Shown: piece after piece, positions 5,643 through 48,914 of the stretch
Numbering within the stretch: position 1 is the first letter of the stretch
How the letters are laid out: every line of letters starts with the position of its first letter
Source of the DNA: Bacteroidales bacterium
Lineage (GTDB): Bacteria; Bacteroidota; Bacteroidia; Bacteroidales; ML635J-15
Length of the DNA: 55,106 nt
NCBI GenBank assembly: GCA_016937855.1
Contig: JAFGVU010000139.1
Span: forward strand, 1-55,106
Direction: 5' to 3'
Position numbers and translations under genes: made by a program
Notes under the pieces: generated by a model
Database searches by the model: none
The model's input: the letters and a program-made list of their open reading frames with translations, nothing else
What the model was told of the DNA's origin: nothing

Positions 5643-6809
5643 ATGAAAACTACTATTACTTTTTTATTGCTAATACTATCAGTTTTAGCTTTTAGTCAAA
5701 CTAACGACATTACTGTTTTTTCAGAAAAAGGCGAAAACTTTACTTTGTTTGTAAATAGCATTAAACAGAATGATGTACCAAAAGCAAATGTTACTGCAAA
5801 AGACCTGCGTGGCGAAAATTTTGTGCTTAGAGTTGTGTTTGAAGATAATTCAATTCCTGAATTAACTCAAAATATTTGGACAGAGAGCAAAGATGTTGAA
5901 TTAACAGCCGTTATCAAACTTAACAAAAAAGGGAAATACGTTATTAGATATAATGGAGAAACACCAAGGGTTGAGAAACCTGATGTTGAACACACGGATA
6001 CTTATGTTAATTATGAAGATCCTAATTCAAGCTCCAATACTTCAACAAATACAGGTGTTACTAATCAAACAGAAACCGTTGTTACAACAACAACTGTAAC
6101 TACAAACACAAATGACCCTGGTTTTGAAACAGATGAAGACGTAAATGTAACTTTAAATGTCTCTGTTGATGAAAATGGGATGACAACAACAACCGGCGTT
6201 GGAGAAGAATCTCTTACAATGGATGTTTCTGTTGATGATAATGGTATGAGTGTAAATACCGGAGTTGGTGGCGAAAGTTTTGGTATGGATGTTGACGTGA
6301 GCGAAAACGGTATGGATATGAATACAGGTGTTGGCGATGAATCTGTTTCTGTAAACTTTAGCGTTAATGGTACCGGAATGGATACTAATGTACAAACATC
6401 TGAATCTACTACAATAACCACCACCACAACAACAACGACAAGCACATCAGGGTTCGAAACTGACAGCTATGAAGTTGAAGAAACAGAAACTTATGTAGCA
6501 CCTGCTACATCTAGGTGTTCGTATGCTATGAGTAGTAGCGAATTTGACGAAGCTCTAGCTAGCATTAAATCAAAATCTTTTGAAGATTCAAAACTTACTA
6601 CTGCAAAACAAATTTGTAAAAACGAATGTTTAACTGCCGAGCAAATTAGAGATATAAATAAAGCATTTAGTTTTGAAGAAACCAGATTAGAGTTTGCAAA
6701 ATATGCTTACGATTATGTTTACGATGCTTCAAAATATTATAAAGTTAACGATTCGTTTACTTTTGAAATGACAATCGAAGAGTTGGACGAGTATCTCGAA
6801 ACAAAATAA
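5643..6809 (+). CDS. Secreted Thr-rich repeat protein with C-terminal DUF4476 domain
   Basis: 388 residues from ATG 5643. An in-frame ATG at 5616 would add nine residues in front, but a clean signal peptide (MKTTITFLLLILSVLAFSQ) begins at 5643. After an N-terminal beta-type region (about 20-115) there is a low-complexity Thr/Asn/Ser segment, then four diverged repeats of about 25 residues with the pattern VSVDENGM...TGVGEES, another poly-Thr stretch, and a helical C-terminus (about 295-388) beginning CSYAMSSSEFDEALASIKS that matches DUF4476. DUF4476 proteins are known only as exported Bacteroidota proteins of unknown role. The gene is monocistronic and converges on clpB. The Thr-rich segment produces long antisense reading frames, which I treat as shadows. 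Confidence 0.85.
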   Translation: MKTTITFLLLILSVLAFSQTNDITVFSEKGENFTLFVNSIKQNDVPKANVTAKDLRGENFVLRVVFEDNSIPELTQNIWTESKDVELTAVIKLNKKGKYVIRYNGETPRVEKPDVEHTDTYVNYEDPNSSSNTSTNTGVTNQTETVVTTTTVTTNTNDPGFETDEDVNVTLNVSVDENGMTTTTGVGEESLTMDVSVDDNGMSVNTGVGGESFGMDVDVSENGMDMNTGVGDESVSVNFSVNGTGMDTNVQTSESTTITTTTTTTTSTSGFETDSYEVEETETYVAPATSRCSYAMSSSEFDEALASIKSKSFEDSKLTTAKQICKNECLTAEQIRDINKAFSFEETRLEFAKYAYDYVYDASKYYKVNDSFTFEMTIEELDEYLETK

Positions 6810-6885: not shown

Positions 6886-9462
6886 TTATTTTAGTTTTAT
6901 ATCTATATCATTATGATTTGATGTAATTTCTATTGTGTTTTTACCGGAATCGTTGTTGGCAATTATCAGTTTAGCAATTTTATTTTCTATTTCTTTTTGA
7001 ATAAAACGTTTAACAGGACGTGCTCCGTATTGAGGATTGTAGGATAGTTGCCCAATTGTTTGTATCGCATCATCACTAATCTTAAGCGAATATCCTGCAG
7101 TTTTTAGTTTTCTTTCTGTTAAGCGAATCTGCAACTTCACAATTTGAGATATTTCGTCCTGATTTAAAGGAGTAAACATTATTATTTCGTCGATTCTATT
7201 TAGGAATTCGGGACGCATCTGAGATTTTAGTGCATCTAATACTTTTTGTTCTGTTTCCTGATAATCATATTTGTCCGAATTTATTTGCTCTTGAATGAAT
7301 TGGGATCCAATATTTGAAGTCATAATAACGATTGTGTTCTTGAAGTTTACTGTTCGCCCTTTGTTGTCGGTTAAGCGTCCGTCGTCCAACACTTGTAACA
7401 AGACATTAAAAACATCCGGATGTGCCTTTTCTATTTCGTCGAGCAAAACCACCGAATATGGTTTGCGTCTCACAGCTTCGGTAAGTTGTCCTCCTTCATC
7501 GTACCCAACATATCCGGGAGGAGCTCCAACTAAGCGCGATACAGTGTGCTTTTCCTGATATTCACTCATGTCAATTCTTGTCATCATGTTTTCGTCATCG
7601 AACATAAACTCGGCAAGCGCTTTTGCAAGTTCAGTTTTACCAACACCTGTCGATCCAAGGAAAATAAATGATCCAATTGGTTTACCAACATCTTGCAGGC
7701 CGGCTCGCGAGCGTCTCACAGCATCAGATACTGCTTCAATTGCCTTATCCTGACCAATAACGCGTTTATGTAACTCGTCCTCGAGGCGTAAAAGCTTTTC
7801 ACGCTCACTTAAAATCATTCGGCTAACCGGAATTCCTGTCCATCTGCTAACAATTTCTGCGATATCATCAGAGCTAACAACTTCGTCAACTAATGCATGA
7901 TCTCCCTGTATTTGCGTGAGCTTAGCCTTTAACTCTTCAATTATTCGCTGACTTTCGTTAATTTTTCCATATCGGTATTCAGCAACTTTACCATAATCAC
8001 CGCTACGTTCTGCTTGTTCTGCTTGTAGTTTATAATTCTCTATATTTTGTTTCTCTACTTGTATCTGATCAATTATTTTTTTCTCCTCTTGCCATTTTGC
8101 AGTTAGAGAATCTCGCTCCTCTGAAATATCTGATAATTGTTTCTGAATTTCTGTTATTTTTTTATTGTCTTTTTCGCGTTTGATTGCCTCTTTTTCTATC
8201 TCGAGTTGCTGAATTTTACGATTTAAAACATCAATTTCTTCTGGCACAGAATTTACTTCCAATCTTAATTTAGATGCTGCTTCGTCGATAAGGTCGATAG
8301 CTTTATCGGGTAAAAATCTTTCGGTTATGTATCGGTGCGAAAGCTCAACAGCAGATACAATAGCTTCGTCTAATATTCTGACCTTATGGTGAGATTCATA
8401 TCGTTCTTTTAATCCTCGTAATATTGAAACAGCGTCAACAATATCTGGTTCATCTACTATTACAGACTGAAAACGTCTCTCCAAGGCTTTATCTTTTTCA
8501 AAGTATTTTTGATATTCATCGAGTGTGGTTGCTCCAATTGCTCTAAGTTCTCCTCGAGCCAAAGCAGGCTTTAAAATATTAGCGGCATCCATTGCTCCCT
8601 GAGATTTTCCTGCTCCAACAAGGGTGTGGATTTCATCGATAAACAAAACAATTTCTCCATCGGCGGCAACAACTTCTTTAATTACAGCTTTTAATCTTTC
8701 TTCAAATTCTCCCTGATATTTTGCACCTGCAATTAAAAGTCCCATGTCTAGTGAGAATATCTGTTTCGACTTTAGAGTTTCGGGTACGTCTCCCTTAATA
8801 ATACGATGAGCTAAACCTTCGGCAATAGCTGTTTTTCCAACTCCGGGCTCACCTATAAGAAGTGGGTTGTTTTTTGTTCTTCGGGAAAGTATTTGTAATA
8901 CTCGTCTGATTTCTTCGTCACGACCAATAACAGGGTCAAGCTTGCCATTTTGTGCTCTCTCGTTAAGATTAATTGCGTATCTGTTTAGCGAATCGTAAGT
9001 TTCTTCAGCTGATTGAGAGTTTACCTTACTGCCTTTTCGCAAATCGAGAATTGCCTTTTTTAGATAGTCTTTTTTTAAACCGGCATCTCTCATCATTTGA
9101 CCTATAGTGTCTTTTGAATCAGAAAGTGCAATAATTAAGTGCTCAACAGACACAAATTTGTCGCCAAAATTGTTTTTTATTTTTTGAGATTCCTGAAAAA
9201 CAGACGATAAAGAGTTGGACAAATATGGCTCGCCTCCCTCAACTTTTGGGTAGGAGTTAACAATACTTTTAGCAGCCGATTCAAAATTATATTTGTCTAT
9301 TTCAAGTTTCGACAAGAGTATATTTAAAATACTATCAGCATCATCAAGCATTGAAAGCAATAAATGACCGTTTTCAATTGCCTGATTACCATTGTCTTTT
9401 GCTTTTAGTAAAGCCGACTCGATGCTTTTTTGTGCTTTAATTGTGTAATCGTTTAAGTTCAT
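6886..9462 (-). CDS. clpB: ATP-dependent disaggregase ClpB
   Basis: ClpB is a cytoplasmic Hsp100 hexamer that works with DnaK to resolubilise aggregated proteins. From ATG 9462 ([16 protein letters not shown], the usual ClpB N-terminus) the protein has 858 residues, the family's normal length; the upstream ATG at 9486 would add eight unusual residues. Visible parts are a Clp N domain (1-145), a first AAA+ module with Walker A GEPGVGKT (about residue 200) and Walker [10 protein letters not shown], a long coiled-coil M domain (about 400-520), and a second AAA+ module with Walker A GSTGVGKT (about 604) and the pore loop [13 protein letters not shown]. It is a single-gene unit sharing a terminator with the converging gene. 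No heat-shock operator was recognised. Confidence 0.98.
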
Positions 9463-10339: not shown

Positions 10340-11173
10340 ATGGAAGTTCTGAATAAAATGTTGGACAGGTACACTATAGTTACTGATGCAGATTTGTTTA
10401 ATGCCACTCGAGAAATAATGCAAGAAATTACATTAGCCGGCTTGTATAGGGGAGGGTTCTTTAATAAGGCGGCATTCTATGGAGGAACCTGCCTCAGAAT
10501 CTTTTACGGTCTTGATAGATTTTCGGAAGATTTGGATTTTTCCCTATTGCAGTCTGATTGTGACTTTAAGCTTGAACCTTATTTTAATTCTGTTATTTCT
10601 GAATTTGCTTCATTGGGAATCGAAGTAGAGATTCTTCAAAAGCAAAAGAGTCGAATTACAAACATCGAATCTGCTTTTTTAAAACAAACAAAAACAGTTT
10701 ATTCATTAAATTTCCAAAGTCAAAAAAATATTAAAATTAAATTTGAAGTTGACATAAATCCACCACAGGGATTTGATGTTGAGAACAAGCTGTTATTGCA
10801 GCCATTTTCATTTTATGTAAACTGTTTTTCCCTCTCGGATTTGTATGCAGGGAAAATGCACGCATTACTTTTTCGCGCATGGAAATCAAGAGTTAAAGGA
10901 CGTGATTGGTTTGATTTTGAATGGTATGTTCGGAATAATGTTGAGCTTAATCTATCTCATTTTGCGGAAAGGGCTTTTCAAAGTAATCATTTGTCGGAAG
11001 CAACTATTAGCCGTAATGATTTTATAAAATTATTAAAGACTAAAATCGAAACTGTTGATTTTAAGAATGCAGCTGCAGAGGTTCAAGTGTTTATAAAAAA
11101 ACCTTCTGATATTGAGTTATGGTCAAAGGATTATTTCTTGCAATTGACAGAGATGATTAGGTTTAAATCTTAG
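10340..11173 (+). CDS. AbiEii-family nucleotidyltransferase toxin
   Basis: 277 residues. The family signature is clear near the N-terminus: GGT (48-50) followed by LRIFYGLDR and SEDLDFSL (62-69), the DNA-polymerase-beta-type metal-binding motif. The later conserved block SLSDLYAGKMHALLFRAWKSR and KGRDWFDFEWY is also present. Known members add nucleotides to tRNA acceptor ends or otherwise stop growth, and some give phage resistance by abortive infection. The gene starts 2 bp after the antitoxin stop, so the two are co-transcribed. All key residues appear intact, so the toxin is probably functional. Confidence 0.92.
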   Translation: MEVLNKMLDRYTIVTDADLFNATREIMQEITLAGLYRGGFFNKAAFYGGTCLRIFYGLDRFSEDLDFSLLQSDCDFKLEPYFNSVISEFASLGIEVEILQKQKSRITNIESAFLKQTKTVYSLNFQSQKNIKIKFEVDINPPQGFDVENKLLLQPFSFYVNCFSLSDLYAGKMHALLFRAWKSRVKGRDWFDFEWYVRNNVELNLSHFAERAFQSNHLSEATISRNDFIKLLKTKIETVDFKNAAAEVQVFIKKPSDIELWSKDYFLQLTEMIRFKS

Positions 11174-36135: not shown

Positions 36136-37206
36136 TTATCGTTTTGTTAGTAAGTCAATTAATGCGAGATTAATGTAATAGTTTCCTGTTCCCAATTTTT
36201 CTTTTCTTAAAATTCCGTCTTCTGCTAATTTGTTTAAATAGTTTGCAGCCGTAAGTCTAGAAACTCCTAAGTCATTGACAATAAATTCAATTTTTGTGTA
36301 AGGATGCTTAAATAAGTTATTAAGAAAATCTTGACTATAGAATTTATAATTATCTCTTAGCTTATGTTTTGACACTTGCATTAAATCTTTAATTCCAAGA
36401 ATTAACTTTGTTGTTTCTTTTGCTGTTTCTTCAACACCTTTTATTAGAAATAAAACCCAATCTTCCCATAAGTTTTCATCACGAACTTCTTGTATATATT
36501 TATAATAATCTGCCTTGTGTTTTATTATGTAGTTACTTAAGTATAAAATTGGTAATGATTGTAGGTTTTCAAGAATCAAATATAAAATATTAATGATTCT
36601 TCCTGTTCTTCCATTTCCATCATAGAATGGGTGAATACTTTCAAATTGGAAATGAATAATTGCCATCTTGATTAGAGGGTCAATGTCTTGAATTTCGGAG
36701 TCGTTTATGTATTGTTCCAAGTTTGTCATCAAATCCAATATGTCATCATAGTTTTGTGGAGGTGTATAGATAGTTTCTCCGGTGGTTGAATTTTTTAATG
36801 CAGTGCCGGGGAGTTTTCTAAATCCTGCTTTATTGTCTTCGAGGGCTTCTTGTATCTGGAGAATCACTTTGTTTGTGAGCAATCCTCTTTCTAGTACTAA
36901 TTCAAATCCTTTCTTTAACGCAGAGATATAATTTTGAACTTCTTTTGCATCCAAGGATTTAAAATTGTCAAGATTTAATTCCGACTTGAATAAATCATCG
37001 TGTGTTGTTATTATGTTTTCAATTGCTGAACTGTCTTTAGCTTCTTGTAATCCTAAAGTGTTTATTAGTATATTCTGATTTGGTATTGAAGCAGCAATAC
37101 CTTTTAGTTCTGCTAAAGCAAAATGAGCTGAAGGTAATGCCTTTAAAACTTTTTTCGTTTCAAAATCAACAGATAATGGCAGTTTTTCTAATTTCCAAGA
37201 AGTCAT
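36136..37206 (-). CDS. Fic-family AMPylase with class II inhibitory motif and C-terminal winged helix
   Basis: 356 residues. The Fic active site is intact: HPFYDGNGRTGR (192-203), with catalytic His192 and the anion-hole GNGR. The inhibitory motif S/T-x-x-x-E-N is present as SSAIEN (59-64), with Glu63 as the autoinhibitory residue, so this is a class II (N-terminally self-inhibited) Fic protein. The flap TGETIYTPP lies at 142-150. Residues about 290-356 form a winged HTH (IEFIVNDLGVSRLTAANYLN). Known members transfer AMP to target proteins, and members with a DNA-binding tail may regulate their own gene. No separate antitoxin is adjacent, as expected for class II. An inverted half-site array covers the promoter. 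Confidence 0.93.
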   Translation of the reverse strand: MTSWKLEKLPLSVDFETKKVLKALPSAHFALAELKGIAASIPNQNILINTLGLQEAKDSSAIENIITTHDDLFKSELNLDNFKSLDAKEVQNYISALKKGFELVLERGLLTNKVILQIQEALEDNKAGFRKLPGTALKNSTTGETIYTPPQNYDDILDLMTNLEQYINDSEIQDIDPLIKMAIIHFQFESIHPFYDGNGRTGRIINILYLILENLQSLPILYLSNYIIKHKADYYKYIQEVRDENLWEDWVLFLIKGVEETAKETTKLILGIKDLMQVSKHKLRDNYKFYSQDFLNNLFKHPYTKIEFIVNDLGVSRLTAANYLNKLAEDGILRKEKLGTGNYYINLALIDLLTKR

Positions 37207-38847: not shown

Positions 38848-39879
38848 TTATTCTGATAGATGCTGAGTAACAAATAATTTTATTGAATTTGAGTTTGCTT
38901 TATGATTTGTGTCCGGCAGATTTATTGAAAAAACTTTGTTCTTTTCACGTTTTTCCATTCCTCTTAAATAAGCTTTGTCGTAGTAATGCAAACTTATCAA
39001 TGCAGCGTTATAAAAATCGCCCTCTTCGATAAAATCAATAGCTTCTTTAACATCTTGTCCGCCAAGACGTTTCGCAATTTTGTAAATCGCAGTTTTTAGA
39101 ATGTCTTTTTCGCAATGGGTGTATTCGTCAACAAGGTTTTTTGCTCGTTCTTCTTTCGGAATATTTATAAAATAGAGTGGAGCTTGGCGCATTTGATTAA
39201 AAAATGTCATTGGGATAGCTATTTTTCCAATGCTTACACTCTCGTCTTCGAGCCAAATTTCTTTCGAGATATTTAGTTTTGACAATTCAAACTGTAGTAG
39301 ATTTTCGAAGTACTCCGTTGTAGGTTGAGTACCCAAACCAATGGCTCCAAAAGCCGATCCTTTATGATTTGCAAGTGCTTCGAGATCGATTACCTGATGC
39401 CCGTCGTTTAAAAAATCGTGTAATATATGTGTTTTACCACTACCTGTAAAACCTCCGAGGATTTTTAATTTAAAAGGATTATTAAAATAATCAAGAACAT
39501 GATTTCGGTACGATTTATAGCCGCCACTAATTACAAAAACATTTTTAAATCCATTGTCGTGTAGATGTTTCGCAAAAGATTGACTGCGCATTCCACCTCT
39601 CCAACAATGAACAATAATATTTAGCTCGGGAGCATGTTTTTTAGTTTCATCAATAAAAAATTGAAGTTTTGGAGTAACATATTTGTAACCAAGATTTATT
39701 GCTGCTTCTCTCGAATTTTGTTTGTAAACTGTGCCAACGTGGGCTCTTTCTTTATCGTTAAAAAGTGCAATGTTAATTGACGATGGAATATGCCCACGAG
39801 AGTACTCGCCCGGCGAACGGACATCAATTATCGCCATGTTCGATTTTAGCGCATCACCAATTAAAATCTCAGAAATCAT
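38848..39879 (-). CDS. mnmH: tRNA 2-selenouridine synthase MnmH (SelU/YbbB)
   Basis: 343 residues from ATG 39879 (MISEILIGDALKSNMAIIDV), the usual family start; a frame open from 39966 would read through the promoter. N-terminal rhodanese domain (1-130) with active-site Cys92 in HCWRGGMRSQ, then a P-loop domain with GFTGSGKT (about 142-149). The enzyme replaces the 2-thio sulfur at the tRNA wobble uridine (Lys, Glu, Gln tRNAs) by selenium, through an S-geranyl intermediate, using selenophosphate. The selD gene that would supply this is not in the window. Upstream lie the left 67-bp repeat and the R-M cassette. Confidence 0.93.
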   Translation of the reverse strand: MISEILIGDALKSNMAIIDVRSPGEYSRGHIPSSINIALFNDKERAHVGTVYKQNSREAAINLGYKYVTPKLQFFIDETKKHAPELNIIVHCWRGGMRSQSFAKHLHDNGFKNVFVISGGYKSYRNHVLDYFNNPFKLKILGGFTGSGKTHILHDFLNDGHQVIDLEALANHKGSAFGAIGLGTQPTTEYFENLLQFELSKLNISKEIWLEDESVSIGKIAIPMTFFNQMRQAPLYFINIPKEERAKNLVDEYTHCEKDILKTAIYKIAKRLGGQDVKEAIDFIEEGDFYNAALISLHYYDKAYLRGMEKREKNKVFSINLPDTNHKANSNSIKLFVTQHLSE

Positions 39880-39946: not shown

Positions 39947-40013
39947 TAAAAAAATAGGAGCGACAAATTAAAAGAAAAATTCTTTTAATTGTCGCTCCCA
40001 ATAATTTATCTAT
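39947..40013. repeat. Left copy of a perfect 67-bp direct repeat flanking the R-M cassette
   Basis: All 67 bases are identical to 42680-42746 (offset 2733). The repeat contains the hairpin GGAGCGACA...TGTCGCTCC with a long AT stem (ATTAAAAGAA/TTCTTTTAAT) and, on the minus strand, a following T run: a rho-independent terminator. The left flank is the mnmH upstream region. The right flank (40014-40200) is the leader of the methyltransferase gene and holds a small hairpin ACCTG/CAGGT (40014-40027) and no ORF. Confidence 0.97.
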
Positions 40014-40163
40014 ACCTGTTTCCAGGTTGAACAGTGTTTCTCTACAATAAGTGTTGTATAGATTATTAAGAACTTATGGTTCATGTAAAAAGGACTACCC
40101 ACATTTGGCACATTTAGAGGTTAAACCCACTGGCAAATTCTTCACTTTTCAAAAGAGTTAAAT

Positions 40164-40196
40164 TTTTGCAAATGAGTCCAAAATTGATTACTTTTG
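40164..40196 (+). promoter_or_regulatory. Promoter of the R-M operon
   Basis: TTTTG (40164-40168), 20 bp, then TACTTTTG (40189-40196): a full -33/-7 match. The -7 box ends only 4 bp before ATG 40201, predicting a leaderless methyltransferase mRNA. No C-protein gene precedes it. Confidence 0.7.
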
Positions 40197-40200
40197 TTGT

Positions 40201-41799
40201 ATGATAGAGCTAAAAGAAAATTGCAAATTGCCTTCTGAATACGCAGAATTAATTGGTCAGGATTATGCTAATTCTACATCGGAAAAGCATAAAAAGGAAA
40301 GTGGGCAGTTTTTTACTTCAAAACAGATTGCTTATTTTATGGCAAATTTGGCTACTCCAAAATCAAATAAGATTACCATACTTGATCCTGGTTGTGGGAC
40401 AGCCATCCTTTCTTGTTCATTAATTGAAAAATTAACTGTAAAATGTGATTTGAAAGAGATTGATTTAACTCTTTATGAAACAGATTTAGAAATTATTAGC
40501 CAAACCAAAAAAGTAATTGATTTTTTAGGCTCATGGTTAACGAAAAAAAATATAAAACTTAATTTTTGTATTAATAAATCAGATTTTGTTCTTGATAACT
40601 CTCAGGCTTTTGAGCAAAATTCATTGTTTAGTAATACCGAAACTAAAGAGTATGATTATATTATCTCTAATCCACCTTACTTTAAAATTTCAAAATCTGA
40701 CACAAGAGCATCTTTAGCAAAAGTGTTAGTATATGGACAACCTAATATTTATTCAATTTTCTTAGGATTATCAGCAAAATTACTTAAACCAGATGGTGAA
40801 CTAATATTTATTACACCGAGAAGTTTTGCGGCGGGTAATTATTTTAAAGCATTCAGACAATCATTTTTTAATGATGTAAGCATTTCAAATATACATATCT
40901 TTGAGTCACGAAACAAAATGTTCAAAAACGATAATGTTTTGCAAGAAAATATTATCTTGAGAGCCACGAAACAAGTAAATGAACAAATAAAAATAACAGT
41001 ATCTGAATGTGATAAAGGCTTAAATAGCCCTCTTGAACAAATTTTTAAATCAGAAAATTTAATTGATTTTAAATCAAAAGATAAAATACTGTTTATCCCT
41101 TCAAATAGAGAAGAAGTTAATACAATAGATATATTTAAACAATGGAAAAATACTTTAATCGATTATAATATTCAAATATCTACAGGTCCGGTTGTTGCAT
41201 ACCGCTGTACTGATTATCTGAAGAAAGATGGCGCATTAAGCGAAACTCTGTCTCCACTTATATGGTTGCACCACATTAAGGATATGGAGTTGGTTTATCC
41301 ATTACAAAAAGGAAACAAGCCAAATTATATTTTAAATATTGAAAATTCCAGAAAAGTATTAATAAAAAATAAAAATTACGTTTTATTACGACGATTTAGT
41401 TCAAAAGATGACAAAAGCAGATTGGTATGTTGTCCATATTTTTCATGTAATTTTGAAACAGAAATGATCGGAATAGAAAATCATATTAATTTTATTCATA
41501 GACCTAAAGGATATCTATCTGAAAACGAGACATGGGGTATTTCGGCACTTTTTAGCAGTAGTTTATTTGATACTTATTTCAGAACATTTAATGGGAATAC
41601 TCAGGTTGGAGCATCAGAGTTAAGACAGATTAAAATGCCACCTCTTGATGAGATAATTTTAATAGGTAGCAAAATTAAAGAATTTGTAAAACCTGGGAAA
41701 CAGGTTATTGATAGAGTTATTAACGAAATACTTTTTGAAAATAGATATGACAAAAATACAAGAAGCACAGTTGATTTTGAAAGAGTTGGAGTTGCCTGA
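40201..41799 (+). CDS. Type II adenine-N6 DNA methyltransferase, PstI/BsuBI family
   Basis: 532 residues. Motif X-like KKESGQFFTS (31-40) comes before the AdoMet-binding motif I ILDPGCGTAIL (60-70) and the catalytic motif IV NPPY (157-160), the gamma order X-I-IV of N6-adenine methyltransferases such as M.PstI and M.BsuBI. The C-terminal 250 residues are the target-recognition region (IWLHHIKDMELVYPLQKGNK, GNTQVGASELRQIKMPPLDE). It protects host DNA at the site cut by the partner enzyme; CTGCAG is predicted from the partner's family. The endonuclease gene starts inside its last 53 bp. The methyltransferase is first in the operon, so it is made first. Confidence 0.93.
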   Translation: MIELKENCKLPSEYAELIGQDYANSTSEKHKKESGQFFTSKQIAYFMANLATPKSNKITILDPGCGTAILSCSLIEKLTVKCDLKEIDLTLYETDLEIISQTKKVIDFLGSWLTKKNIKLNFCINKSDFVLDNSQAFEQNSLFSNTETKEYDYIISNPPYFKISKSDTRASLAKVLVYGQPNIYSIFLGLSAKLLKPDGELIFITPRSFAAGNYFKAFRQSFFNDVSISNIHIFESRNKMFKNDNVLQENIILRATKQVNEQIKITVSECDKGLNSPLEQIFKSENLIDFKSKDKILFIPSNREEVNTIDIFKQWKNTLIDYNIQISTGPVVAYRCTDYLKKDGALSETLSPLIWLHHIKDMELVYPLQKGNKPNYILNIENSRKVLIKNKNYVLLRRFSSKDDKSRLVCCPYFSCNFETEMIGIENHINFIHRPKGYLSENETWGISALFSSSLFDTYFRTFNGNTQVGASELRQIKMPPLDEIILIGSKIKEFVKPGKQVIDRVINEILFENRYDKNTRSTVDFERVGVA

Positions 41800-42682
41800 G
41801 GCGCAACAAAATGAAATTTCAGCATACACATTGCTTGCATTATGTGGTATAAAAGAAAAAGATAAGTGGGCGAAAGCTTCAAAAGAAAGTCTGGGCGTTT
41901 CAAGAGGAATTATGTCTTTTATTTCAATTAACTATCAAAAAGAATATGCGCCAAATACCCGAGAAACAGTGAGAAGGCAGGTCCTTCATCAATTTGTTCA
42001 AGCAGGAATTGTTGATTATAATCCAGAAATTCCTGATTTGCCAGTAAATAGTCCTAGAGCACATTATGCTATCTCTGAATTAGCACTAGAAACTATAAAG
42101 GCGTACAGAACCCGTAAATGGAAAGAAGCTGTAAAGAATTTTAAAGCACAAATAGGAGGTTTAAAGGGGAAATATAGTAAAGATAGGGATATGTCAAGAG
42201 TTCCTCTAAAACTTGCGAACGGAGAAGTACTCCTATTGTCTCCAGGAAAACACAATGAAGTTCAGGCTGCTATTGTTGAAGAGTTTGCTTCCCGATTTGC
42301 ACAAGGATCTATCTTATTGTATGTTGGAGATACCGAAAACAAAAATTTCTACATTCAGAAAGATAAACTAAAACAAATTGGAATTCCAATAACTGAACAT
42401 AGTAAATTGCCTGACGTTGTTATTTATGATGAAGCTAAAAACTGGTTATATTTAATCGAAGCTGTTACTTCACATGGTCCGATGTCGCCAAAAAGAGTTC
42501 TTGAATTAGAAGATTTTCTAAAGTATTGTCGCGCAGGCAAAATATTTGTTTCTGCATTTCCCGATTTTACTGAGTTTAAAAAACACACAAATGATATCGC
42601 TTGGGACACAGAAGTTTGGATTGTGGATTTTCCGGAACACATGATTCATTTCAATGGGGATAGATTTATAGGACCACGTTAA
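41747..42682 (+). CDS. Type II restriction endonuclease, BsuBI/PstI family (predicted CTGCAG)
   Basis: 311 residues from ATG 41747 (MTKIQEAQLILKELELPEAQ); the in-frame ATG at 41708 would deepen the overlap with the methyltransferase. Residues 20-115 form the family's N-terminal winged-helix domain. The C-terminal nuclease domain has LPDVVIYDEAKNWLYLIEAV (221-240), containing the PD...E metal site (Pro222-Asp223, Glu238), then TSHGPMSPKR and FVSAFPDFTEFKKH, all hallmarks of BsuBI/PstI. Known members cut CTGCAG leaving 3' overhangs. The gene overlaps the methyltransferase by 53 bp in another frame. Its TAA stop coincides with the first three bases of the right 67-bp repeat. Confidence 0.94.
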   Translation: MTKIQEAQLILKELELPEAQQNEISAYTLLALCGIKEKDKWAKASKESLGVSRGIMSFISINYQKEYAPNTRETVRRQVLHQFVQAGIVDYNPEIPDLPVNSPRAHYAISELALETIKAYRTRKWKEAVKNFKAQIGGLKGKYSKDRDMSRVPLKLANGEVLLLSPGKHNEVQAAIVEEFASRFAQGSILLYVGDTENKNFYIQKDKLKQIGIPITEHSKLPDVVIYDEAKNWLYLIEAVTSHGPMSPKRVLELEDFLKYCRAGKIFVSAFPDFTEFKKHTNDIAWDTEVWIVDFPEHMIHFNGDRFIGPR

Positions 42683-42746
42683 AAAAATAGGAGCGACAAA
42701 TTAAAAGAAAAATTCTTTTAATTGTCGCTCCCAATAATTTATCTAT
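42680..42746 (-). terminator. Right copy of the 67-bp repeat; terminator of the macroglobulin gene
   Basis: Identical to 39947-40013. Its last base touches the TAG stop of the macroglobulin gene (42747-42749) and its first base is the T of the endonuclease TAA. The minus strand forms a stem of about 19 bp ending GTCGCTCC followed by TATTTTTTT; the plus strand lacks a good T run. It therefore belongs functionally to the macroglobulin gene. Confidence 0.9.
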
Positions 42747-45700
42747 CTATTTTACCTGAACCCGAACACCTTCTGAATGAGATGAGAATTCTGGTGCATA
42801 CATACACTGCATTGTTGTAATGCCATTTGAGAAGTCTCCTTTTTGTGACACAACCAAATCGTATTCAAAAACATAGGTTCCTTTGCGCAAGTAATCGATA
42901 AAAAAGTTCATAGAGGCATCTTTTATCCCTTGATAATAACCCAGACCTGCGCTGTATCTGTATCCTGAGATGTAGTCCACAGGCTCAAAACAGCTTGCAC
43001 GCATGTCTTTCAAATGAACGTACTCCATGTCTCTGTCGACTCTTATCTCGATACGAACGGTTACTTTATCACCAACTTCAAGATTTGCGTCTTTTTTGAT
43101 TGGAACTATAACTGGTTTATTGCCTTCGCGACGCTGAACAAAAAGCTTTTTGTTAATAGTTAGTGGTGTCTCTTCGAATTCAGTAATTTTGTCGAGCTGC
43201 TCAAAATACTGCCAATAAACTGCTCCCCACGACACTGTGTTTGATGATTTTGTAACTTTAACATCTCCCCAATCTGAGTCAACCATATTACCATCCCAAG
43301 CTTTTTTAAAGTATCCTGTTCCGGCTTCAGTTTTAATTTCAGGGTCGTTTTGAGGATCAATTTTCATATTCCCAACCTGGATTACAGCCATTGAGTCGTC
43401 GGATAATAGGTTAGTACCTCGTAATAAAAGAGCATAAATGGCCTCGGCTGTTGCTTTTGTTGTTTTCCAATCCTGAGTTTGTTTTTGTTTAAGTAGCCAA
43501 ACTTTAATTTCCTCGACAGCTGTTTGGTCGTCTGCAACTTCGTCAAACATCTCAATTAGTAATGCATGCGTTTCGATTGGAGCCTGATACCAATAATAGC
43601 CTCTATCGTTTTTCCAGTACATCCCTAACTCTTCGCTGTAAATTGCATGCTCTTTTAATGATGCGACAATTTTTGCAGGAACAACTTTTTCGTCGTATCT
43701 GTATAAGGCAAGAGCTATCATTCCTTGCATATAAAAGCTTTTGTTTTTCCAGTATTTCTGAGCCTGACCTTTGTAATAATCAAAAGCTTCTTGTGTTTTC
43801 TTGTCAATTGGAACGTCAATAAAATATGAACGTGCGTACAAATACTGAATTTCCATGTAAGATAAGTGATCTTCTTCCATACATTTAGCATCGCAGTATT
43901 TTTTCAAATTTTTGTAGTTTTTGACAATTTCGCCATCGATAAACCCAATAGCCTTTTTTGTCATATCCCAGGTTTTATTATCGTTTTTGATGTAAGTAAC
44001 ACCTAAATTGTCTAAATGACCTAATCCTGTAACGATGTGTTGAGTAATATACCAGCTTTCAGGCATTCCGTCAAACCATGCCCAACCACCATTGTATTTT
44101 TGTTGTTTAAGTAGTTTTGCTAAGGCCGAATTACTCTCCATACTCATTCGATTTAGGTCGAATAGTAATCCAATTCTGTGTTTGCGTTCATTTTCATCTT
44201 TTGCTTCCAAAACCCATGGTGTTTCTTCAAGTAAGAGTGCTTTTAATTCTTGATTTTTTTCAAGATTCGACATCAAAGCCTGTGATGATGGAGTGTTTTT
44301 CCAGATATCAAATACTCTTTTTATTTTAGGGTCGGAATTCGCGATATGTGTTGCCAAAATGTTAGCATAATATCTTGAGAATGTTTGCTCAGCACACTCG
44401 TATGGATATTCCATAATGTATGGTAGCGCCTGCACAGCATACCATGCCGGATTATTTGTAAACTCTAGTGTGTATCTGTGGTGACGAAGAGTAGGCGAAT
44501 TATTATCCTTTAGCTTTTTCATTGTAAATTCTGTCGTTCCTGCTTTGCGAACAGGTAATGGCATTGTCTCTGTTACTAACATACGGTTAGTTAAAACCGG
44601 AATAACTCTCTCTTCTCCATCGGAGTGGAAACGGCTTTCAGCTGTAATACGAATTCCAACAGCACTTAAGCCTTCGGGTATTTGTATGTCCCAACTTACA
44701 GCAATGTTTTTGCCTTTTTCGATGCTTATTTCTTTTAAGTTCTCGTTTTTAATTAAGAATTTGTCGTTTAAGCTTTTTTGTGTTATAGGATCAAAAAACT
44801 CGATAGTTGATTTTCCAACTATTAGGATGTCTGAAACATTATTGATTTTTACAGAAATCGACATTTTGTCATTTTCTCTGAAAAAACGAGGTAAATTAGG
44901 CATTACCATTAATTCTTTTTGAGTTATTACTTCTTCGGAGATTTGACCAAGTTTTAAATCTTTTGTATGTGCAAAGCCCATAAAGTTCCATCGGGTGAGA
45001 CTCTCGGGCATTGTAAAGCTTAAAAGGATTTCTCCATTTTCGTTAGTAACAAGGTTTGGATAGAAAAATGCGGTTTCGTTAAAATTCTTCCTTATTTGAA
45101 CATCTGCCATTTCTCCTGAATACTCGCCTCTGCCATTTCGTGTTTGTTGCTGTTCTAAGCTTTTTTCTCCTGCTGCAAGAGTTATTGTTTGATCTTTGTC
45201 AAAGTTTTCTTTTTCATCTGCTGAGGACATGATGGCATCTACTTCTGTTGCCACTGATCCGCTTGAAGGGGCGTTCATAACTGATTCCCTTTTTGACATT
45301 GACCTGAATACTCCATCGCCTGCTGTTCTTTCTTCCGAATCATAAAGATATCCTTCATTGTAATAGCGACCATCAAAACTAAATCCATAAAAATTAAATC
45401 CGGGGTTATAAACTTGTTTAGATATGTATTTTGGATAAAAATCTTTGAAATATGCAGAACTGCCTCCGTATGAGAAACTGCTGGTATTCCAATTTGAGTA
45501 TGAATAGTAGTATGGGAAAATTGACCAATACCACGAGTTTTGAGCGAACATATCTAATGATGCATCATACATAGAAGCAAGCATTTCTGCATCTTTGATT
45601 TTACCATCTTTGTCGGAGATTTTTATTTTCCATTCTTCTTTAGATCCGGGTAGTGTTTTGTCTCTAAATGTAATAAATTTTAAATCGAGTTGTTTATTAT

Positions 45701-48700
45701 CCCATGGAACATCTATCCTAAGGTTAGAGGTGTATAATCGACTGTCTTTAATAAACATAAGGTTGACACCAATGCCGCCTCTGTATTCTTCTTCAATTAA
45801 AATTGGTATTTTTTTTACTTCGGAATTTAGGTTTATAATTTCGCGTTTAACAGTTTTACCTTTTACAACAAACTCATAAAGTAAATACACATTTTCGTAC
45901 GATGAGCCAACAATAATATTTGCTGTTTCGCCCGGTTTTGCAGAATAAACATCAGTTAAGAAAAAGGATGTTGCAGTATAAGGCATTTCTGAACTTTCGG
46001 TATCATATAATACAAATTCGTTTGTATTTTTAATATTGTTTCCCCATTTATCTTTGGAGGTCATCTCAATTCTATAAACACCGGGAGTCCATTTTTTTGC
46101 ATCTTTTAGTGCTAGTTTTGAGTATTTTTCTGTTCGGAGTTCTTTTGAAAATACTTTTTCGGCGGTTTTCCAGTTTTTGTAATCTGTTTCGTGCAAAAAT
46201 TCGTAACCCGGATATTGTTTGTGCCACTCGTCTTCTGTGTATAATGGTTTGTCAACAACCTCCCATTGTCTTTTTGCTAATAGTAATTTTGGATCTTGAA
46301 GCTTATATATTTCGACTTTTACATCGGCAGGAACAAACACTCCTGAGATATTATTTGAAATAACACTAATACTATCAATTTTATTTCTATCGATATTTCC
46401 ATAAAAATCGTTTGAAAGTGATAAACTTTTTTCTGATACATAAACCATTGAAGAGCTTGTTTGAGTTTCTCCATTTATATCAGTTGCAGTCACAAAAATT
46501 GAGTAATAGTAATAGATGTTTTTATTCATATCGCCAAAATCTTCGCCGATGGCTTTAAAACCTATTTTAAATTTGCCGTCATCATCGACTTCAACATCTC
46601 CATATGCAATTTCTTTTTCGGTAAAGCTTCCTCCACGATAATATCCCCACCACATTGGATTACGGACAACTCGATAGGATATTTTTGCATCAGTTAGAGC
46701 AGTACCGGCATAGGTCATTGCAGTTCCTTCGGCATAAACACTGTCGTTTATTCTATATTCTCCCTCAACCGGTAGCATTTTTACCTCAAACATTGGACGC
46801 TTATACTCTTCCACTTTTATATAATGAGAGTGTCCACCTGCTGTAATTCTAAAATTTCCGGTTAATACATCTAAAGGAATGGTAAATGTGCCATTAAAAC
46901 TTCCAAATTCATTTGTTGTTAGATGCTTCGATTCAACTTCCTGATAATTAACATCATAGAGAAAAACAGAAGTCTTATAGTTGGTAAGTATTTTAGCATT
47001 TTCACCTTTTTTTTCAATGCATATTGCTTTAAAATTTATTGTTTGTCCGGGACGATAAATTGCTCGGTCGGTGAAGAATTTAATTTCAGTTATTGCCTCC
47101 TCATCTTCTTCATACCCGTAGTTGTACATATATGTGTTTTCCGAAATAAAATTATCATCTTTACTCACATCTAGTCTAATATCATAGTAGTTTTCGCCAC
47201 CCAGTTTTTTCAATGGTGCATATCCTTGATTATCGGTAAACTCAGTTGTTATTTTATTGTAAACATATTTTCGTTTTACGTACGAATATTCATGTTGATA
47301 TGCTTCTATTTTTGCTCCCTGAACAGGCTTTCCTGTTGTTCTGTCAAAAACATAATATCCTGATTGGCTGTAGTAATCGCTGTTAGTTGTTAAGCTTAAG
47401 TCGGATACAAATATTTTTCCTTCGGTGATGTAGTTGTTCTCTAACTTAAATTCCGGATTAGCATGTAAAAATATTATATAAAACCCTTTGTCTAAAACAT
47501 CTGCCAGATATTCGGTGCTGTGTATATTATAATCTGTTGTCTTTGGCAGATCAATCGGTTTTGATTGTATTATGGGATCCGATATTTTTAGTATTTCTTC
47601 GTAATAATTCTCATCATAGTAATAGATGTCTTTATTGATATATTTATCATAATCGCACTTTAATATGGTAAGATATACTTTTTCGGTATTTGTATAAGTT
47701 ATTCTGATTGGGAATTTTGATTGTGGACTAACAATTTTCTCATTTTGGAAATTAAAACTGACTTTTTCAATTTCATTCATCAAATTTTTGCATTCGGGAT
47801 AGTAGTTTGCATCAGGATATAGAGTAATGACTTCCGATAGCATCAGGTGGGCTTTTTTCTTGGACGTTTTGTATTTCAAGCTTGTTGAATCAATGAAATT
47901 ATATTTGCTTCCCAATTGATTGTAATATTTTGCCAATTCATAATCAATCATTGCTAATTCCGGCACTTTATAATGCTTTTCGTGCATGTTTAGAAGTGTC
48001 GATTCCCATATTGCATCTTTATTTGCACTGGCTAGATTGTTTTTTACGTAGTTTAAACGCATTATATCGGTGTGGAGCAATGCTTCTAGATTTTCTTTGT
48101 CCTCTAATCTAAGGGTTATCCATTTCTGATATATTTTTATGATTGAATGCTTGTACGATAAGCTGTCTGCTTCAACAGGTAGCAAAACGAAATCACTTGC
48201 TTTTACAAGGTAAGCGTTTTCGGTTATCTTTTCTTCTTGCTCTGCTCCATTATCATAGTAATAGTAGTAGTAATAGTTGTTTGTTGAAAGGCGCGAAATA
48301 GCATTATATGCTACAAAATCGTATAGACTAGGAAATCTGCTTTTAGATTCTTTAGCATAATCTATAAATTCAGAATACTCGTCAATTTTAATATTTTTGA
48401 GATTGTCATCTAAAGCAAGCATATAGTTTTTGATAATCTTGTCTTTAAACTTATTCTTATCCCATGTTTTTAAATCGTTTTGTTCAAATGATGATGTAAC
48501 CGATCTTTGATTAATCAAGTATGAATTATTGCTGTAATAATCGTAGTACATCGTAGCAAGCAATAAATGTAACATCGATTTGGCAGTGCCATCTACTTTT
48601 GGGATTTCAGACTCTAGCTTCTCGATAGATTTTGCATATCCTTCTTCTTCAAGAATATTTGTGTATTTTAATCGGTAAATTGTTGATTTAATAATCTGCT

Positions 48701-48914
48701 TATCGTTTTTTTCAGATATTGCTAAATCATAAATTTCTTCAACAGTTTCTAATGCCGATTTGGGCAGAGCATCTTTTTCGTATTTTGCTACCTCTTCCCA
48801 AAGTTTCTTATATTTGTCGGGACCGGCTTGATTAGCATCAAAGAATGAGAAATTATTTACAAAAAGGAGGGATGTAAACAAGAATCCAAGTTTAATAAAA
48901 AGTGATGAGTTCAT
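42747..48914 (-). CDS. Alpha-2-macroglobulin family protein with thioester
   Basis: 2055 residues, larger than the usual 1500-1900. Signal peptide (1-31) without a lipobox, so probably periplasmic and soluble or loosely attached. Helical, TPR-like region (about 35-390); macroglobulin beta domains from about 390, including the MG2 motif FFTDRAIYRPGQTINFK (about residue 610-626); a flexible Gly/Ser/Asn-rich stretch around 1195-1250 that may be the bait region; the A2M signature FTMPESLTRWNFMGFAHT; the thioester CAEQ at Cys1507 in YPYECAEQTFSRYY; then an alpha/alpha toroid and receptor-like C-terminal domain. Known bacterial relatives trap invading proteases. The usual pbpC partner is not adjacent. 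Single-gene unit. Confidence 0.93.
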   Translation of the reverse strand: MNSSLFIKLGFLFTSLLFVNNFSFFDANQAGPDKYKKLWEEVAKYEKDALPKSALETVEEIYDLAISEKNDKQIIKSTIYRLKYTNILEEEGYAKSIEKLESEIPKVDGTAKSMLHLLLATMYYDYYSNNSYLINQRSVTSSFEQNDLKTWDKNKFKDKIIKNYMLALDDNLKNIKIDEYSEFIDYAKESKSRFPSLYDFVAYNAISRLSTNNYYYYYYYDNGAEQEEKITENAYLVKASDFVLLPVEADSLSYKHSIIKIYQKWITLRLEDKENLEALLHTDIMRLNYVKNNLASANKDAIWESTLLNMHEKHYKVPELAMIDYELAKYYNQLGSKYNFIDSTSLKYKTSKKKAHLMLSEVITLYPDANYYPECKNLMNEIEKVSFNFQNEKIVSPQSKFPIRITYTNTEKVYLTILKCDYDKYINKDIYYYDENYYEEILKISDPIIQSKPIDLPKTTDYNIHSTEYLADVLDKGFYIIFLHANPEFKLENNYITEGKIFVSDLSLTTNSDYYSQSGYYVFDRTTGKPVQGAKIEAYQHEYSYVKRKYVYNKITTEFTDNQGYAPLKKLGGENYYDIRLDVSKDDNFISENTYMYNYGYEEDEEAITEIKFFTDRAIYRPGQTINFKAICIEKKGENAKILTNYKTSVFLYDVNYQEVESKHLTTNEFGSFNGTFTIPLDVLTGNFRITAGGHSHYIKVEEYKRPMFEVKMLPVEGEYRINDSVYAEGTAMTYAGTALTDAKISYRVVRNPMWWGYYRGGSFTEKEIAYGDVEVDDDGKFKIGFKAIGEDFGDMNKNIYYYYSIFVTATDINGETQTSSSMVYVSEKSLSLSNDFYGNIDRNKIDSISVISNNISGVFVPADVKVEIYKLQDPKLLLAKRQWEVVDKPLYTEDEWHKQYPGYEFLHETDYKNWKTAEKVFSKELRTEKYSKLALKDAKKWTPGVYRIEMTSKDKWGNNIKNTNEFVLYDTESSEMPYTATSFFLTDVYSAKPGETANIIVGSSYENVYLLYEFVVKGKTVKREIINLNSEVKKIPILIEEEYRGGIGVNLMFIKDSRLYTSNLRIDVPWDNKQLDLKFITFRDKTLPGSKEEWKIKISDKDGKIKDAEMLASMYDASLDMFAQNSWYWSIFPYYYSYSNWNTSSFSYGGSSAYFKDFYPKYISKQVYNPGFNFYGFSFDGRYYNEGYLYDSEERTAGDGVFRSMSKRESVMNAPSSGSVATEVDAIMSSADEKENFDKDQTITLAAGEKSLEQQQTRNGRGEYSGEMADVQIRKNFNETAFFYPNLVTNENGEILLSFTMPESLTRWNFMGFAHTKDLKLGQISEEVITQKELMVMPNLPRFFRENDKMSISVKINNVSDILIVGKSTIEFFDPITQKSLNDKFLIKNENLKEISIEKGKNIAVSWDIQIPEGLSAVGIRITAESRFHSDGEERVIPVLTNRMLVTETMPLPVRKAGTTEFTMKKLKDNNSPTLRHHRYTLEFTNNPAWYAVQALPYIMEYPYECAEQTFSRYYANILATHIANSDPKIKRVFDIWKNTPSSQALMSNLEKNQELKALLLEETPWVLEAKDENERKHRIGLLFDLNRMSMESNSALAKLLKQQKYNGGWAWFDGMPESWYITQHIVTGLGHLDNLGVTYIKNDNKTWDMTKKAIGFIDGEIVKNYKNLKKYCDAKCMEEDHLSYMEIQYLYARSYFIDVPIDKKTQEAFDYYKGQAQKYWKNKSFYMQGMIALALYRYDEKVVPAKIVASLKEHAIYSEELGMYWKNDRGYYWYQAPIETHALLIEMFDEVADDQTAVEEIKVWLLKQKQTQDWKTTKATAEAIYALLLRGTNLLSDDSMAVIQVGNMKIDPQNDPEIKTEAGTGYFKKAWDGNMVDSDWGDVKVTKSSNTVSWGAVYWQYFEQLDKITEFEETPLTINKKLFVQRREGNKPVIVPIKKDANLEVGDKVTVRIEIRVDRDMEYVHLKDMRASCFEPVDYISGYRYSAGLGYYQGIKDASMNFFIDYLRKGTYVFEYDLVVSQKGDFSNGITTMQCMYAPEFSSHSEGVRVQVK

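Follow-up and report, generated by a model that had tools for sequence, protein, structure and literature searches.

The stretch analysed here, called the window, comprises 55,106 nucleotides (contig JAFGVU010000139.1 of the Bacteroidales bacterium assembly GCA_016937855.1) and carries a two-gene restriction-modification (R-M) cassette of the BsuBI/PstI type between a putative macroglobulin gene and mnmH. The cassette has probably been inserted at the terminator of the macroglobulin gene, with this terminator duplicated at both ends of the insert; we place the probability of this reading at roughly three in four (0.77). The insertion itself follows a known pattern for R-M genes. Its unusual part is that the duplicated target is a terminator, and that terminators of relatives exceed two copies and enclose more than a single insert. 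The proposal originated from an inspection of the DNA without database searches, in the following the sequence-only reading, and is now supported by a vacant locus in the congeners G011 and G014, by the restriction of the 67 bp to this locus and by an independent occurrence of the same architecture in the genomes G260 and G500. That the copies arose by target duplication during insertion is a step we infer. The locus contains the following features:

38848-39876, minus strand: mnmH, encoding tRNA 2-selenouridine synthase; flanks the insert opposite to the macroglobulin gene
39947-40013, minus strand: left member of the 67-bp direct repeat pair, with the terminator hairpin; the start codon of mnmH follows 70 nt downstream
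40014-40200, plus strand: 5' non-coding segment of the cassette; DNA homology to the G011 cassette starts at about 40074
40201-41799, plus strand: N6-adenine DNA methyltransferase (type II) with Eco57I and N6_Mtase domains
41747-42682, plus strand: BsuBI/PstI-type restriction endonuclease, overlapping the methyltransferase gene, its TAA being the first bases of the right repeat
42680-42746, minus strand: right member of the 67-bp direct repeat pair; it adjoins the macroglobulin stop codon and is probably the intrinsic terminator of that gene
42747-48914, minus strand: large putative macroglobulin gene, named in the sequence-only reading and not by family search; its stop codon abuts the right repeat

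The perfect direct repeats described in the sequence-only reading were confirmed: 67 of 67 bases are identical in direct orientation, with a start-to-start spacing of 2,733 bp. Two full copies were present in the 4.44 Mb and 264 contigs of the own genome, both at the cassette ends, and two further matches were the palindromic hairpin pairing with its own opposite strand. Folding of the repeat as RNA yielded -23.9 kcal/mol for the plus strand and -26.9 kcal/mol for the minus strand; none of 200 shuffled sequences was as stable on either strand (z of -7.79 for the minus strand). On the minus strand, a G-C-containing stem-loop is followed by a proper U-tract (CUCC-UAUUUUUUUA), the plus strand, in the direction of the R-M genes, has a weak tail (CAAUAAUUUAUC). 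As the U-run is confined to the minus strand, the repeat was assigned to the macroglobulin gene of this strand, and fold and U-run together predict that it is probably the intrinsic (rho-independent) terminator of that gene. Each copy had been regarded as a full rho-independent hairpin, which fits the stem and U-run of the minus strand. The right copy ends immediately before the open reading frame (ORF) 42747-48914 and thus touches the macroglobulin stop codon as claimed. A simple terminator scan did not list the hairpins of the window and of the G500 repeat, in the window probably because the stem has a bulge; folding was used instead.

Both endonuclease domains were well supported, PF06616 with 202.8 bits and PF17728 with 159.2 bits (cut-off 27 each), and together with the adjacent N6-adenine methyltransferase the cassette resembles the BsuBI/PstI type II systems without a notable difference. 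The recognition site of BsuBI and PstI is CTGCAG, which the window enzymes may share. Between the repeats, ORFs of at least 80 aa were the methyltransferase, the endonuclease and one 100-aa antisense ORF, with no extra gene of transposase or integrase size among them. Relatives of the endonuclease were matched in 3 of 50,697 phage records and 149 of 72,556 plasmid records, each below 60 % identity, hence no close relative was found there, and the hairpin core had no exact match in viral contigs. The endonuclease ORF ends at 42682 with the first three bases of the right repeat as its TAA. Among 16 endonuclease homologues, 12 have the stop codon directly after a conserved Gly-Pro-Arg; the homologue of G260 (L098) stops one residue later and three others (L110, L116, L117) extend by a few residues. 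Because 12 of the 16 stop at the same position, the TAA may be the cassette's own stop codon, overlapping the target by up to 3 bp. The suggestion that the repeat supplies the stop codon was correct in that the TAA lies within the right copy, but such a supply is inseparable from the gene's own stop. Elsewhere in the window, the minus-strand ORF 36136-37206 carries what we take to be a motif of the Fic family.

The genus of the window is represented by 26 genomes, own genome included. The macroglobulin gene was matched in 25 of these and mnmH in 8, one of the latter being a weak partial match. In G011 and G014 the two genes adjoin each other without R-M genes, separated by 343 bp and 697 bp, respectively, between the protein matches. 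Related cassettes are present at other places of these two genomes, with 85 % (G011) and 83 % (G014) DNA identity to the window cassette. No match to the 67-bp hairpin was detected at their cassette loci or genome-wide (35 of 37 candidates scored in each). Since these close cassettes show no match to it, the hairpin is considered foreign to the cassette; by sequence comparison, it is not cassette-borne and the locus is vacant in relatives. A cassette elsewhere bearing the same hairpin, named beforehand as the observation that would overturn the proposal, was not seen in G011 and G014. The hairpin might still be a part of the R-M unit that travels at both of its ends, and its position exactly at the end of the endonuclease gene would suit this, but the cassettes of G011 and G014 show no match to it, and the one of G260 is bracketed by another hairpin, which belongs next to the neighbour gene of that locus; such an explanation is most improbable. 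An assembly artefact, a chimeric join at the 67-bp overlap in a probably metagenome-assembled genome, is almost as improbable. The distribution of the own genome over 264 contigs would allow such a join, but the outer gene order is also present in G011 and G014 and the same architecture in G260 and G500.

The related cassette of G014 (L048/L059, contig C91) is seemingly decaying, with a methyltransferase in two ORFs and an endonuclease match to only the first ~177 residues. In G011 (L053/L047, contig C209) the endonuclease is 88 % identical, and the R-M unit lies with an HNH-like gene, recognised by eye, between 282-bp repeats of 93 % identity. This repeat is not a strong hairpin; it includes the 3' end of a gene that, by eye, resembles a transporter gene.

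A PstI-type R-M unit within duplicated copies of another terminator, which the sequence-only reading had proposed as a check in other genomes, was found in G260 with two and in G500 with three 90-bp copies. The R-M genes of G260 (L098) are located between repeats of 97 % identity, each with a hairpin, and the gene-proximal copy starts inside the last nucleotides of a Wzz/tyrosine-kinase gene. Among 99 genomes of that genus, the 90-bp repeat was found in these two only, both copies of G260 being full. In the genome searches for the 90-bp and 67-bp repeats at most 9 and 35 first-look candidates, respectively, were scored per genome, a depth at which weak or partial copies could escape. The G500 locus (L192, contig C12) is arranged as follows:

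6093-6182, gene sense: copy 1, after the kinase gene
between copy 1 and copy 2: R-M genes, the endonuclease disrupted
8779-8868, gene sense: copy 2, its stem damaged by two changes
between copy 2 and copy 3: AbiEii toxin gene and AbiEi-like gene
10668-10757, gene sense: copy 3, followed by a gene that we take to be DUF4248-like

With 115.2 bits, AbiEii was a strong match; AbiEi scored weakly, 20.9 bits against a cut-off of 25. A stretch of 117 bp is common to copies 1 and 3 and includes 27 nt of the 3' end of the kinase gene; the 101 bp common to copies 1 and 2 include 11 bp beyond the terminator, and G260 keeps those 11 bp beside its R-M genes. Judged from these junctions, the overlaps of 117 and 101 bp imply two separate insertions in G500. 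In the simplest order, AbiE would have been inserted first with a 117-bp duplication. The R-M genes would then have entered the gene-proximal copy, duplicating 101 bp and carrying 11 bp of the AbiE cassette along; in G260, AbiE would then have been lost by recombination between copies 2 and 3. Alternative orders seem to need more steps.

The terminator could also serve as the attachment site of a site-specific recombinase provided in trans, or as the place where a circular cassette that already carries one copy integrates by homology. The two different cassettes at one G500 terminator and the apparent clean loss in G260 are in line with either, but the shared lengths of 117 and 101 bp at one site speak against a fixed recombinase core, and the window cassette is devoid of a recombinase gene. 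Homologous integration leaves the first insertion event unexplained. We therefore regard this pair of explanations as unlikely.

A third hairpin was detected in G006, a congener of the window organism, behind a gene with a CTP_transf_like domain that is presumably CoaD-like (L064, contig C101, 1699-3616). Its three copies bracket a gene of the ATPase_2 family (480 aa) and a short spacer, and a search of 26 genomes revealed it at no other place. Dispersed repeats were ruled out as the origin of the hairpins, the 67-bp, 90-bp and 55-bp repeats being each found, among the candidates scored, only at their own locus.

Whether the terminator was chosen as a target, as the sequence-only reading had suggested, is a separate matter. 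Long target duplications may occur anywhere, and only those events in spacers may persist that leave the terminator of the neighbour intact. Such survivorship is compatible with an insertion at the macroglobulin terminator, and we consider the chances for and against it as balanced. After subtraction of the cassette and one repeat copy, the spacer between the two genes amounts to 137 bp, ~42 bp of which are the hairpin; because the spacer is so short, a 67-bp duplication in it would often include the hairpin by chance. Selection may act against insertions by which a gene is cut off from its terminator, and the 282-bp repeat of the G011 R-M locus, not being a strong hairpin, also fits survivorship. 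Against it, three unrelated hairpins were used, those of G500 and G006 being present in triplicate, a hint beyond chance from a sample too small to decide. The choice of a terminator as target is thus inseparable from a survivorship of insertions that leave a working terminator.

Direct repeats with stem-loops around gene units are also known from integrons, and the repeats were considered as attC sites of an integron gene cassette. PstI-type endonuclease genes were indeed observed beside attC-like repeats in G046 (L114), G095 (L105) and G043 (L108, on one side only); we presume the attC character of these repeats from their features. Near these three loci no relative of the window methyltransferase was detected. 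Among 10 genomes searched, an integron integrase above the cut-off was present only in G046, ~2.4 kb from the endonuclease gene, and in G095, where ~1.3 Mb separate it from the R-M genes and a weaker match below the cut-off lies ~6 kb from them. The best TIGR02249 scores were far below the cut-off of 265 bits in the own genome (G000, ~95 % complete; 79.7 bits) as well as in G260 (75.8 bits), G500 (75.7 bits) and G006 (84.8 bits). In addition, the own genome contains only two repeat copies, and the ends of the 67-bp repeat, compared by eye with the consensus, lack attC core sites. With no integrase above the cut-off and no attC cores at the repeat ends, an integron cassette was rejected for the window and is highly improbable.

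L099, L105 and L114 look like integron or integron-like arrays. The array of G162 (L099 with L207/L208, contig C1, ~1,084,200-1,097,700) has four copies of a 235-354-bp repeat with 98-100 % identity. Its several defence-like units comprise an IrrE-like/DUF4411 pair, a PstI-type R-M system accompanied by other genes and an AAA_5 gene pair, presumably McrB-like. Although this array is integron-like, the G162 genome had no integron integrase above the cut-off. In G015 (L009, contig C113, 1235-2722), mnmH is located between 130-bp direct repeats of 96 % identity near an integrase-like gene below the cut-off; this locus was not counted as a further terminator case because the gene nearby makes an integron-like context as likely. 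A general repeat scan of 164 loci revealed pairs also in L122, L176/L185, L186 and L190, which were not read as terminators; the one of L186 is a tandem-like stretch.

Forty-four PstI-type loci were drawn from the genus, the genome collection and the phylum, leaving out L124 (same place as L064) and L126 (a fragment). A loose rule (at least 24 nt and at least 85 % identity within 5 kb; at least 30 nt for controls; several loci with a flank shortened by a contig end) identified flanking direct repeats at 6 of the 44, compared with 9 of 368 shifted controls that came from 4 loci. The six were the window, L098 (G260), L053 (G011), L099 (G162), L105 (G095) and L114 (G046). A second set of loci presented no flanking repeats (0/15; controls 2/151). 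The tight rule demanded both repeats within 300 nt, at least 40 nt long and at least 90 % identical, and was applied to those 52 of 60 loci (46 + 15, without L124) whose two flanks each measured at least 300 nt. Tight repeats were observed at two of these, the window and L098, and at 9 of 8,641 shifted control placements. The route of R-M spread envisaged in the sequence-only reading is, with 2 of 52 loci, not a general one for this type of R-M system. Terminator duplication is an occasional route for PstI-type R-M genes, integrons are another.

Several observations weigh against an insertion at the macroglobulin terminator. The excess of tight repeats, 2 in 52, is suggestive only and not statistically firm, because the nine control matches overlap and stem from only two loci. 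The mnmH-macroglobulin neighbourhood is rare: it was seen in two of the 25 congeners, and G013 carries the two genes on separate contigs amid other neighbours. A full 67-bp copy was detected in none of the 25 congeners among the candidates scored; the single partial match, in G016, comprised 43 nt with 79 % identity. In G011 and G014, the vacant spacers have diverged and show no such hairpin. The predicted empty site was found as a cassette-free locus, but not with its single 67-bp copy, the spacers being too diverged. In G481, where the locus of G260 has a vacant relative, the kinase gene and the DUF4248-like gene are near each other with no cassette, and no comparable terminator was seen there.

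For the favoured insertion at the macroglobulin terminator, the following course is proposed. An independent R-M unit of two genes, lacking a recombinase of its own, would have entered the macroglobulin-mnmH spacer, and a target of ~67 bp, in essence the entire terminator of the macroglobulin gene, would have been duplicated at the two ends of the insert. Repair of a staggered break or by template switching is a plausible guess for the insertion process. As a by-product, the macroglobulin gene would keep a terminator and the second copy would shield mnmH. The identical repeats would offer a RecA-type path for the loss of the cassette, or for its re-acquisition from a circle that carries one terminator copy; the apparent loss of AbiE in G260 suggests that the path of loss is in use. 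More broadly, terminators at the 3' end of genes in Bacteroidota may be recurrent landing and exchange sites for small recombinase-free defence or addiction cassettes such as R-M, AbiE and ATPase genes. Each insertion would duplicate the terminator and insulate host gene and newcomer, and the copies would let cassettes stack, be lost or be swapped by homologous recombination. The result, as in G500, would be the counterpart of an integron array that works without an integrase. This generalization is tentative and rather doubtful.

It has long been asked how small R-M and toxin-antitoxin units can move in the absence of a recombinase. Perfectly or almost perfectly duplicated terminators, and one terminator with two cassettes of differing shared lengths, provide junctions able to discriminate between repair-based, site-specific and homologous models. 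In the minimal mobile elements of Neisseria, R-M genes are exchanged between conserved neighbours with hairpin terminators nearby. These hairpins are dispersed uptake-sequence repeats, whereas the window hairpin is locus-specific and directly duplicated. Integron gene cassettes share with the window the gene units between direct repeats with stem-loops, but the window has neither attC cores nor an array, and its genome no integron integrase above the cut-off. The insertion of R-M genes with a long target duplication was reportedly described by Nobusato et al. in 2000 and Furuta et al. in 2010, and its mechanism is, to our knowledge, unsettled. Passages of PMC3874152, PMC1643837 and PMC4978471 describe this kind of insertion; the pattern is frequently tied to R-M genes according to a passage of PMC1643837, an R-M cluster with a direct repeat on its flanks is cited in PMC4978471, and a part of PMC3031569 compares the pattern with repeat-flanked forms that can be amplified by unequal crossing-over. 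Titles and opening lines of abstracts did not mention a terminator duplication by R-M cassettes; the articles of 2000 and 2010 may hold such a case. The likeness of the window to this pattern lies in transposase-free R-M genes and in direct repeats of the order of 100 bp, here 67 bp and not copies of an insertion sequence, at a site where relatives lack them. It differs in that the duplicated target is a whole hairpin terminator, and in that a relative, G500, presents one terminator with two cassettes, one of them an AbiE-type pair unrelated to R-M.

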